In this document: positions 48,876 through 51,125 of the stretch, piece after piece
Layout of the letters: every line of letters starts with the position of its first letter
Position numbering within the stretch: position 1 is the first letter of the stretch
Source of the DNA: Butyricicoccus pullicaecorum DSM 23266
GTDB taxonomy: Bacteria > Bacillota > Clostridia > Oscillospirales > Butyricicoccaceae
Direction of reading: 5' to 3'
Assembly: GCF_900167005.1 (NCBI RefSeq)
Contig: NZ_FUXW01000002.1
Span: forward strand, 1 to 64,000
Length of the DNA stretch: 64,000 nucleotides
The notes under the pieces: generated by a model
Seen by the model: only the letters and a program-made list of their open reading frames with translations
Database searches by the model: none
Told to the model about the DNA's origin: nothing
Position numbers and translations under genes: made by a program

Positions 48876-49671
48876 GCGTGCACAGCATAACCTCGTGAGC
48901 ATGCAGCATATTTATAAGACGTTTAACCCGGATACGGTCAGCGAGGTGACCGTGTTCCAGGACTTTAATCTGGATATTCCGCGTGGACAGTTTGTCTCGG
49001 TCATCGGCTCGAATGGCTCGGGCAAGACGACCATGCTCAATCTGCTGTGCGGCAGTATTCCGATTGATATGGGTGCAATCTATCTGGGCGGTAAGACGCT
49101 TAAGGGACTTAAGGAGTACCAGAGAGCGGGAAAGATTGGTCGTGTATTTCAGGACCCGTCCCGCGGCACCTGCCCGGAATTGACCATCTTGGAAAATATG
49201 GCACTTGCCGATAATAAGGGCAAAGTGTTCGGTCTGGGTCGAGGCGTCAACCGTCGCAGAATGGATGAATACCGCACCCAGCTGGAACGCCTCAAACTCG
49301 GCTTGGAAGATAAAATGGATATCCCGGTAGGCAGCCTGTCAGGCGGTCAGCGTCAGGCACTGGCGCTGCTGATCTCCACGATGACCCCGATTGAACTGCT
49401 GATTTTGGATGAACATACCGCAGCTCTTGACCCCAATTCGAGCGCAACGGTCATGGAACTGACCGATCAGATCGTGAAAGAAAAGAATCTGACTGCGCTG
49501 ATGGTTACCCATAACTTGAAATTTGCCGTGCAGTATGGCAATCGCCTGCTGATGATGCATCAGGGTCGCGCTGTGATCGATGCGGCAGATGCGGAGAAGG
49601 AAAAGCTCCAGATGAATGATATTTTGGAGAAGTTTAATACGATTAGTTTGGAACTCGGCAATTCTCTATGA
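48853..49671 (+). CDS. Tryptophan ABC transporter ATP-binding protein
   Basis: This 272-aa ATPase carries Walker A GSNGSGKTT near residue 53, Q-loop RVFQDPSRGTCPELTILENM, signature LSGGQRQALALL near 158, Walker B LLILDEHTAALDP (Glu with H-loop MVTHN). ATG 48853 lies inside trpY after AGGAGGAAAA. It powers the TrpX-TrpY importer. Confidence 0.93.
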   Translation: MSIPSSAERAQHNLVSMQHIYKTFNPDTVSEVTVFQDFNLDIPRGQFVSVIGSNGSGKTTMLNLLCGSIPIDMGAIYLGGKTLKGLKEYQRAGKIGRVFQDPSRGTCPELTILENMALADNKGKVFGLGRGVNRRRMDEYRTQLERLKLGLEDKMDIPVGSLSGGQRQALALLISTMTPIELLILDEHTAALDPNSSATVMELTDQIVKEKNLTALMVTHNLKFAVQYGNRLLMMHQGRAVIDAADAEKEKLQMNDILEKFNTISLELGNSL

Positions 49672-49690
49672 TTTCGCCCACAGGCGAATT

Positions 49691-49804
49691 AAAGTTTGGA
49701 TCAAACCTTTTCAAAGGTTTGCGGAGTCTTGAGGCAGAGCCTCAAGTCGCGGCTCGCAAGCCGCGAAATCCCCTTTTTGATTCCGGTCTTTTGACCGGAA
49801 TCAA
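49691..49804. repeat. Four-hairpin structured element, left copy
   Basis: Four consecutive perfect hairpins follow in order. H1 at 49702-49721 is a 9-bp stem CAAACCTTT with loop TC. H2 at 49728-49746 is CTTGAGGC / GCCTCAAG with loop AGA. H3 at 49748-49765 is CGCGGCT / AGCCGCG with loop CGCA. H4 at 49777-49804 is a 12-bp stem TTGATTCCGGTC with loop TTTT. Linkers are GCGGAGT and AAATCCCCTTT. A second copy with different stem sequences but the same plan lies inverted at 49898-50010. I do not recognise a named family. Confidence 0.8.
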
Positions 49805-49823
49805 CCAAAATAAAAAAATAAAA

Positions 49824-49883
49824 GCGCGTCCACAGACGCGCAATTCTCTGGAAAGACCGTCCGACAGGACGGTCTTTCCTTTT
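49824..49883 (+). terminator. Terminator pair ending the trp transporter operon
   Basis: The hairpin GCGCGTC / GACGCGC (49824-49841) is followed by GGAAAGACCGTCC / GGACGGTCTTTCC (49850-49879) and TTTTGTGTTTTG. It lies exactly between the two four-hairpin copies. Confidence 0.7.
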
Positions 49884-49897
49884 GTGTTTTGTTTTAG

Positions 49898-50010
49898 TTG
49901 AAACCCGGGTGGGACACCGGGTTTCAAAGGGGAATTTCGCCCGTTGCGACGGGCGACTCAGGGCGCTGCCCTGAGAACCCGCAGCCTTTGAAAAGGCTGG
50001 CGAAACTTTT
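49898..50010. repeat. Four-hairpin structured element, right (inverted) copy
   Basis: Read on the minus strand, the order and geometry match the left copy. H1 is CAGCCTTT / AAAGGCTG with loop TC (49982-49999). H2 is CTCAGGGC / GCCCTGAG with loop AGC (49957-49975). H3 is CGCCCGT / ACGGGCG with loop CGCA (49938-49955). H4 is TTGAAACCCGG / CCGGGTTTCAA with an 8-nt loop (49898-49927). The lead-in AAAGTTT, linker GCGGGTT and AAATTCCCCTTT are also shared. Each stem differs from the left copy on both arms, that is, compensatory changes. Confidence 0.8.
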
Positions 50011-50033
50011 AGTGTTGGGTGCGGTGGTTTGGG

Positions 50034-51125
50034 TTAGGCTTGCGGTCTGGGATCGTCGTCGAACGCAGCTAGTGCATAGCGCAGCGCCAGCATGAGCGCT
50101 TCTTTTTCCTCCGAAGAGTTCGACGCTTCAATCAAATCGCGATACCGTCTGCTGACCGCGCCGCGCAGGTCATCCTGCTGTAAGTAGCGCCAGACCGGCT
50201 TTTTGGGTACGGTCTCGTCCACGACTTCACAGCTCAGAAAGACCTGTCCCAGTACCCGGCGCAGGGCAGTAAGGTTTGGCTCATAGATACGCTCACCGAC
50301 CAGAGCAACTGTTGCACAGACACGGTCATGATTTTTTGGGATACGCTCAATAAGTACCTTCTGTAAACCGGTATCTGACGGGATGGGGGTCAAGTCAATT
50401 TCAAGGCGGGAAAATTCCACAGCCTTGGATTCAATAAACTGAGCCTTGATGGTTTCGCCGATTTCAATGCGCAGAAATCCTTTTCGGCCGGTCTCGGTGC
50501 TTGCGACTGCACTCATACCACCCGGGCAGCAAAAGACTGTACCGCCAGCGCGGCGCAGACCGCTGGGTGCGTGGTTGTGACCGGCAGCCAGATACGAGAA
50601 TCCGCTGGCAGCGATCTCGTCGGGGGAATAGTGGTTGTATCCGCCGTCGGTTTTGAGGTCGGTATGTACCAGACAGATATTGACCGGACGGGAGAATTTG
50701 CGATGGGTGAGCGGAATGACCGCACTCTGGTCGTGGAAGGCTGCACCCCAAACGGTTGCCGCTTCACCCAGATGAACCGGTTCCAGTGTGGACTGGGTGA
50801 AAACATGCACATTGGAAGGCAGAGCGGAAGTCAGATAAGGACTGCCCGCGCAGATGTAGTCGTGATTGCCGGGAGCGATCAGAACCGGACAAGCTGCCTG
50901 AGATAAAATGGACATTGCACGGGAAAAGACCGTTGCCGAGGGCAGCGGAGAGTCGAACAAATCGCCTGCGATCAGGATTGCGTGCGCACGTTCCCGACCG
51001 GCTACGCGTACAGCGTGTTCTAGTGCAGCAAACTGCTTTTGCTGTGCGGACTCCGCAGCTTTTTGGGAGAGCATATCGAAAGCCGCGCCGAGGTGCAGGT
51101 CGGCGAGGTGGAGAAATCTGAGCAT
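50034..51125 (-). CDS. Metallophosphoesterase / DNA repair exonuclease (YhaO/SbcD family)
   Basis: This 363-aa phosphodiesterase has FLHLADLHLGA at residues 4-14 (metal Asp-His), ILIAGDLFDS near 52, APGNHDYIC near 92, VHTDLK near 160, and GHNHAPSG near 187. These are all the calcineurin-like metal motifs. The C-terminal part resembles YhaO. The usual large ATPase partner (YhaN/SbcC) is not next to it, so this copy is an orphan in the window. Its stop is 24 nt from the right four-hairpin copy. Confidence 0.88.
   Translation of the reverse strand: MLRFLHLADLHLGAAFDMLSQKAAESAQQKQFAALEHAVRVAGRERAHAILIAGDLFDSPLPSATVFSRAMSILSQAACPVLIAPGNHDYICAGSPYLTSALPSNVHVFTQSTLEPVHLGEAATVWGAAFHDQSAVIPLTHRKFSRPVNICLVHTDLKTDGGYNHYSPDEIAASGFSYLAAGHNHAPSGLRRAGGTVFCCPGGMSAVASTETGRKGFLRIEIGETIKAQFIESKAVEFSRLEIDLTPIPSDTGLQKVLIERIPKNHDRVCATVALVGERIYEPNLTALRRVLGQVFLSCEVVDETVPKKPVWRYLQQDDLRGAVSRRYRDLIEASNSSEEKEALMLALRYALAAFDDDPRPQA

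Follow-up and report, generated by a model that had tools for sequence, protein, structure and literature searches.

An inverted four-hairpin repeat with a terminator-like centre at the 3' ends of genes in Butyricicoccus pullicaecorum

Results and Discussion

Structure of the element between two convergent genes

The analyzed window, a stretch of 64,000 nucleotides of the genome of Butyricicoccus pullicaecorum DSM 23266, contains a convergent gene pair with a spacer of 362 nt. The upstream gene (48877..49671, plus strand, start codon uncertain) encodes the ATP-binding subunit of an ABC transporter and ends with a TGA at 49669-49671. The substrate-binding gene of the same cluster matches the TrpX family with a score below the cut-off of that family. 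The convergent gene (50034..51125, minus strand, stop codon at 50034-50036) encodes an SbcD/Mre11-like metallophosphoesterase (PF00149). Between them lie a left arm on the plus strand (49691..49805) and an inverted right arm on the minus strand (49897..50009), each of which consists of four hairpins in matching order with similar loops and linkers. The inverted pair of four-hairpin units described in the initial annotation was thus recovered in order, loops and linkers. In the left arm, stem 1 occupies 49702..49721 (arms 49702-49710 / 49713-49721), stem 2 49728..49746 (49728-49735 / 49739-49746), stem 3 49747..49766 (49747-49754 / 49759-49766) and stem 4 49777..49804 (49777-49788 / 49793-49804). 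Stem 3 carries the loop CGCA and is hypervariable between copies. The right arm shows the same hairpins in reverse on the minus strand, namely stem 4 at 49898..49927 (arms 49898-49908 / 49917-49927), stem 3 at 49937..49956 (49937-49944 / 49949-49956), stem 2 at 49957..49975 (49957-49964 / 49968-49975) and stem 1 at 49982..49999 (49982-49989 / 49992-49999).

Two additional hairpins are located in the centre. Hairpin A (49824..49841) is terminator-like on the minus strand with the T tail TTTTATTTTT, and hairpin B (49850..49879), with a stem of 13 bp, is terminator-like on the plus strand with the T tail TTTTGTGTTT. A GC-rich hairpin followed by a T tail on each strand has the features of a putative bidirectional intrinsic terminator. 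The arms are also preceded by short leaders. A type 2 leader with a small CGCC..GGCG hairpin (49672..49690, plus strand) adjoins the left stop codon directly, and a type 1 leader (50010..50027, CCACCGCACCCAACACTA on the minus strand) is found at the right. The left arm starts 19 nt past the TGA and the right arm ends 24 nt short of the other stop codon, and these 19-24 nt, already noted as a precise placement in the initial annotation, are for the most part occupied by the leaders. Since the leaders fill the distance between arms and stop codons, the 362-nt spacer consists entirely of the element, except for about 6 bases at the right. The whole unit of about 330 nt is composed of leader, four hairpins, two central terminator-like hairpins (one for each direction), four inverted hairpins and leader. 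The initial annotation was right about the arms and their facing orientation; it treated them as two separate elements and overlooked the central hairpins, the leaders and the fact that arms and centre repeat as one unit, so that the halves are better described as arms of a single cassette.

Folding of 49689-50012 gave z = -15.05 as RNA and z = -15.58 as DNA (minus strand), with none of 100 shuffled sequences as good in either case. In the RNA fold of lowest energy, stems 2, 3 and 4 are retained in both arms, as are the central hairpins. The outer ends of the stretch pair with each other instead, left stem 1 with right stem 1.

Copy number and distribution

A search of the 3.27 Mb genome with the 331-base stretch revealed 97 matching pieces on both strands (E<=0.001), so that further copies exist, the lack of which would have refuted the initial annotation. 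From 38 regions 67 arms were collected, of which 63 distinct ones were aligned and four excluded (three with an insert, one truncated). These 63 complete arms are 108-121 nt long and contain four palindromes each. The covariance-model search proposed in the initial annotation was performed with a model built from them and identified at least 150 arms in the genome; copies were found in relatives as well. The model gave 235 matches (E<=0.01) in 1.07 Mb, a number that includes overlapping slices and weak matches on the opposite strand. Within the window it detects just the arm pair at 49691-50010, both arms at full length (model R1, 121.7 bits for the left and 116.6 bits for the right arm, both of them among the 63 training arms).

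A second arm type of higher G+C content (CAGCCTGCGCGGCTGG / CCGGGTC..GACCCGG modules) partners an ordinary arm in many elements. It accounts for 36 of 215 arms, scores about 45-75 bits and was seen in loci L054 and L065 and in copies of the own genome, e.g., at 1735-1843 of L030.

Among the arms listed, the density is uneven, with 18 arms on the 56-kb contig C24 and 3 on the 544-kb contig C33. Contigs often start inside a copy, which may not fully account for this unevenness. In at least 10 of the 35 contigs of the genome an arm lies no more than 700 bases from the start, and the element may contribute to assembly breaks. Many copies, near-perfect DNA palindromes and the uneven density (C24 vs C33) are what could be expected for sites that organize the chromosome as double-stranded DNA, by protein binding or as cruciforms. 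However, the variable stem sequences leave no fixed protein site in the stems, and such a function does not explain the rules of stop codon distance and orientation described below, which makes this explanation improbable.

Carriers of the element are patchily distributed. They were found among 8 of 60 relatives, 46 of 295 genomes sampled from the order and 5 of 398 genomes across the phylum, the own genome being counted each time and all three counts being lower bounds because the large searches used stricter filters. Four of the five carriers in the phylum sample belong to the Oscillospirales, and the one outside has a single match of 44 bits. Two genomes of the same genus, G001 and G004 (the latter about 80% complete), contain no match, compared with at least 150 arms in the own genome.

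Covariation of the stems and exchange of whole hairpins

The initial annotation had claimed that every change on one side of a stem is matched on the other. In the alignment of the 63 distinct arms 94.1% of the pair cells of the four stems are standard, so that uncompensated stem change is not what was found. Changes of both partners occur in 283 cells, compared with a mean of 77.8 in shuffled alignments and none of 500 shuffles as high, and a shift of the partner by one column reduces pairing to 47-52%. Both sides change at 16 of 35 pairs (shuffle mean 14.2), and at two positions of stem 3 all four Watson-Crick pairs are used. The number of further standard pair types (28) points in the other direction, as it was reached by all 500 shuffles (mean 36.2), which is to be expected for stems that occur in few discrete types. 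Stem 3 has 14 unpaired cells at its outermost pair, and in stem 4 five pairs have 2 such cells. In stem 1 just 81.2% of the cells are paired in this alignment, which we attribute to misaligned shorter CAGCC variants.

A count of pair cells in stems 2 and 3 of the own genome gave 2410 of 2427 Watson-Crick cells (99%), 1317 of them in stem 2 (166 arms) and 1093 in stem 3 (157 arms, 9 of the 166 being left out for this stem). The remaining cells are 13 G-T, 1 A-C and 3 other combinations. Among 54 arms of relatives (1 left out for stem 2 and 10 for stem 3) there are 19 G-T and 3 A-C cells and 33 other mismatches, partly caused by the second arm type in the wrong register. The excess of G-T over A-C on the sense strand (13:1 in the own genome, 19:3 in relatives) weakly favours a transcript of this strand, the argument being weak because the placement of the stems gave G-T half credit and the copies are related. 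Stems that pair perfectly and have almost no intermediates are more reminiscent of palindromes in DNA or of block exchange than of slow compensation in an RNA. In stems 2-4, one-sided standard changes are found in at most 1 of 63 arms at every pair.

Exchange of whole hairpins is visible in the combination of stem types. The 143 arms that could be typed at all four stems (14 of 157 were left out) represent 106 combinations. Stem 3 is independent of stem 1 (452 of 500 shuffles as high) and of stem 4 (159 of 500), and stems 1 and 4 are at most weakly linked (46 of 500). A link is seen between stem 2 and both stem 1 and stem 3 (0 of 500 each), with a possible one to stem 4 (11 of 500). With the pairs 1-2 and 2-3 linked and 2-4 hardly independent, the shuffling of modules is therefore incomplete. 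At an orthologous locus in G002, which is 92% identical over 3.1 kb and which we take to be argB-argD, the element differs by replacement of stem 1 together with the lead-in, by one base in stem 2 and by one in the loop of stem 3. In ten comparisons of orthologous sites in G002 and G003, made by eye, some arms are nearly unchanged and others have modules or the whole arm replaced. One of the orthologous sites (L168 vs C18 of the own genome, by eye) shows a paired change from C-G to T-A. Few one-sided intermediates, reassorting stem types and block replacement indicate that much of the apparent compensation results from the exchange of whole hairpins.

The data also bear on the explanation favoured by the initial annotation, that every copy is individually selected for an RNA fold and changes by point mutation and compensation. 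The 283 double-changed cells, the 94.1% of paired cells and the C-G to T-A change agree with it, as do the stems that differ among genomes of the order with loops and linkers remaining similar. The near absence of one-sided standard changes within the genome and the discrete, largely reassorting stem types with block replacement at orthologous sites have already weakened it, and we consider it unlikely as the general mode of change. The part that stood is the constraint on the fold, since selection for it is best supported by the different yet well-paired stems in other lineages.

Placement relative to genes

The position of the arms relative to genes was analyzed with gene calls from a simple codon-usage caller made for this analysis. 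Counts refer to 166 of 202 nhmmer rows, those starting at model position 5 or lower. These 166 near-complete arms stay clear of predicted genes, with an overlap of 20 nt at most. From 162 arms with an upstream gene, 132 are in sense orientation to it. This is partly due to the fact that any arm in a convergent gap is sense to one of the genes, and the information therefore lies in the choice of the gap, the order and the distance. The sense arms mostly begin 13-33 nt past the stop codon. A leader was recognized at 97 of the 132 and none at 35, and 71 leaders begin within 10 nt of the stop codon. A T run between stop codon and arm, probably belonging to a native terminator, was found in 16 cases.

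Convergent gaps are preferred. On contigs covered completely or nearly so, the element was present in 44 of 79 convergent, 36 of 469 tandem and 5 of 80 divergent gaps; for all segments, some of which were chosen for their elements, the numbers are 67 of 118, 42 of 646 and 5 of 113, respectively. With the second arm type included, the leaders point outward in all 69 gaps holding both arm orientations, and all 23 lone arms in convergent gaps lie closer to the gene that they follow; in tandem gaps 16 lone arms are sense and 2 antisense (20 vs 2 for the first type only). Among 40 facing pairs, the central terminator-like hairpins are present in 37 on the plus strand and in 34 on the minus strand, compared with 6 and 0 of 40 in the left arm. 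Of 77 unpaired arms just 40 lie within 200 nt of a terminator-like hairpin (31 of 1540 in shuffled sequences).

In four other genomes of the order, where one arm per locus was considered (20 of 23 matches), 12 of the 20 arms are sense to the preceding gene and the distances are loose. Overlaps with genes do not exceed 20 bases in any of them, and one arm touches a gene by 15. The rule of the stop codon may therefore be peculiar to this genus.

The orientation of lone arms in tandem gaps, the leaders near stop codons and the central hairpins all point to the transcript. They speak against a purely selfish repeat, the hairpins of which would serve a transposition or replication step in single-stranded DNA and which would be found at 3' ends of genes only because it does the least harm there, with no function for the host. 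The excess of G-T over A-C cells speaks in the same direction, with a scoring that leans towards G-T. On the other hand, stems 2 and 3 with 99% Watson-Crick cells and just 13 G-T cells are what a palindrome at the DNA level would give, and the patchy spread (46 of 295 genomes; none in G001 and G004) also fits a selfish element. We regard this explanation as possible, and the mobility data presented below add to it.

Empty sites and a prophage insertion

The SbcD-like protein of the window has matches in Candidatus Butyricicoccus avicola (86%), an uncultured Butyricicoccus (83%), B. pullicaecorum ET57 (71%), another Butyricicoccus MAG (63%) and two distant loci (29-31%). None of these six loci shows a model match at E<=1. 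The two distant ones were left out of the comparison of empty sites. From the four Butyricicoccus loci two, including that of Candidatus B. avicola, keep the gene pair, both without the element; their spacers are shorter and contain terminator-like hairpins by eye. The other two have a different neighbour gene. The reverse was seen by eye at locus L174, where G003 has an arm and the own genome holds only a short terminator. In one comparison of an empty with a filled site no target duplication was noticed by eye, the spacer being replaced and not alignable.

The own genome contains a prophage (C14:11127-23730, identical to L202) with two elements, one between the genes for terL and the portal protein (PHROG matches) and the second at about 10007-10467 of L202. 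The terminase gene followed by the element ends earlier than its homologues. Between terL and portal of three phage records with terminases of 62-65% identity there was no model match; in two of them both genes are close together, and in the third (L204) they are separated by a longer, unrelated stretch. In phage and plasmid records no match to the element of the window was found at E 1e-5, and from two pattern scans of viral contigs one gave no match and the other a single contig, which is the prophage of the own genome. Insertion into a head operon, where a terminator seems unwelcome, is more easily understood for a selfish repeat.

An autonomous copy was searched for by leader motifs more than 250 nt away from detected arms in 1.04 Mb, and none was found. 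The loose motif of leader 1, which is short and prone to chance matches, occurs 131 times near arms, 116 times inside predicted genes and 11 times in intergenic regions; that of leader 2 occurs 48 times near arms and 3 times in intergenic regions, there adjoining other hairpins. Among the genes inside facing pairs with long spacing no transposase was recognized when read by eye. The ends of the element consist of one of the two leader types in inverted orientation, which are not always alike at both ends, and some arms have no recognized leader.

Nested insert

A second structured insert of about 52 nt (CCCGTAGG..CACTATCC...) was found in 17 copies in the sequence examined, in L044 (about 1738-1847) and on contigs C12, C13, C14, C19, C20, C24, C30, C32 and C33. 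It is located in hairpins of the element or its kin, namely in stem 3, in the centre hairpin or in the leader hairpin. GTAG precedes a bulged hairpin in all 17 copies (by eye), which is reminiscent of REP elements. At one orthologous site the insert is present in G002 and missing from the own genome. In 2 of the 17 copies the flanking arms of stem 3 are mismatched, as after recombination within the insert. These 17 places within hairpins of the element can also be counted in favour of a selfish repeat.

Comparison with known systems

REPs sit at the 3' ends of genes, and in E. coli REPs near stop codons affect translation. The element is extragenic (no gene overlap above 20 nt in 166 arms), palindromic and high-copy (at least 150 arms), and it is mosaic with alternating orientation (69 facing gaps; 106 combinations in 143 arms). 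This resembles the BIME/REP sequences, which are described as extragenic palindromes with more than 100 copies per genome in alternating or inverted units and mosaic arrangement (PMC2817692, PMC3733652), with proposed roles in termination and mRNA stability (PMC2817692, PMC3733652). The differences concern the unit, which is an arm of about 115 nt with four hairpins and not a single palindrome of 20-40 bp, the presence of own central terminator-like hairpins and the host, which belongs to the Oscillospirales and not to the enterobacteria or pseudomonads. A tag of GTAG or CGTC marks one end of REPs (PMC3733652); both motifs are absent by eye from the majority consensus of the 63 arms, which refers to the consensus and not to single arms. 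The words "Firmicutes" and "Clostridi" do not occur in the main text of that article (PMC3733652).

REPINs are moved by RAYT (TnpA-REP), a Y1 HUH transposase. The element shares with them the inverted doublet and the non-autonomous appearance. However, the own genome, which is 99.31% complete, has no match to PF01797, and RAYT was rejected as a mobilizer here. PF01797 is present in 27 of 60 genomes, and among the eight carriers G025 alone has one. That the element is a REPIN or BIME proper moved by RAYT would agree with the high copy number, the inverted pairs of extragenic palindromes, the mosaic structure and the location at 3' ends of genes, and GTAG with a bulged hairpin was indeed seen in 17 of 17 nested inserts, though as a feature of the insert and not of the element. 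The missing transposase gene, the consensus without GTAG or CGTC and the arm size make this highly improbable. Since unit size, tag and RAYT all failed among the defining features tested, the element was not assigned to BIME/REP; it resembles BIMEs in style, being larger and having hairpin blocks swapped whole.

With MITEs the element shares the non-autonomous appearance, dispersed copies and empty sites; its ends are inverted, with one or the other leader. It differs in that these two leader types are interchangeable and no parent transposon was found; a target duplication was not recognized by eye where the spacer had been replaced. Bidirectional intrinsic terminators match its centre with one terminator per strand, but here a conserved arm of four hairpins lies on either side and the arrangement recurs throughout the genome. 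Families of intergenic stem-loops sharing a predicted structure (92 families) were described by Cozzuto et al. (2008; PMC2267715), a likeness by description only. In line with the initial annotation, which knew no named family of this plan, no Rfam model matched at the gathering threshold in 58,674 bases of 8 loci or in 49000-50700 of the window. Matches below the threshold, such as RNAI in the latter stretch (31.2 of 47 bits), BTnc231 and rivX, were set aside as generic hairpins. A literature search of titles and abstract openings gave no account of the element.

A proposed mobile 3' end for convergent genes

Taken as a whole, the data are best explained by a non-autonomous, mosaic interspersed element that serves as a ready-made 3' end, to which we assign a probability of about 60%. 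Each inverted arm would sit behind the stop codon of one gene. The RNA of either gene would then contain the leader and the four hairpins and end at the far central hairpin, so that a single cassette could terminate transcription from both sides and give the mRNAs a uniform 3' UTR with much secondary structure. Copies would have spread to the 3' ends of genes, often replacing the native spacer and terminator, and the arms would change mainly by swapping entire hairpins at the short linkers, which are conserved, in addition to occasional paired changes within a stem. Termination, an effect on mRNA stability or translation, recombination behind the exchange and transposition are functions we infer for this element.

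More tentatively, the element might represent a separate class of mobile 3'-end cassettes in Oscillospirales. The system that mobilizes or copies it would read the hairpin architecture and the linkers instead of the stem sequence. The hairpins would then be replaceable cartridges, the cassettes would take over the 3' ends of genes, and termination together with a standard structured 3' UTR would be supplied to a large part of the convergent genes.

Cassettes of this kind occupy more than half of the convergent gaps (44 of 79) on the repeat-rich contigs of the genome, and about every sixth genome sampled from the order contains relatives (46 of 295, the own genome counted). The element thus offers a natural test case for the spread of REP-like repeats without RAYT. 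It also calls for caution, as perfect covariation among copies of a repeat can stem from the exchange of whole hairpins and not just from selection for an RNA fold.
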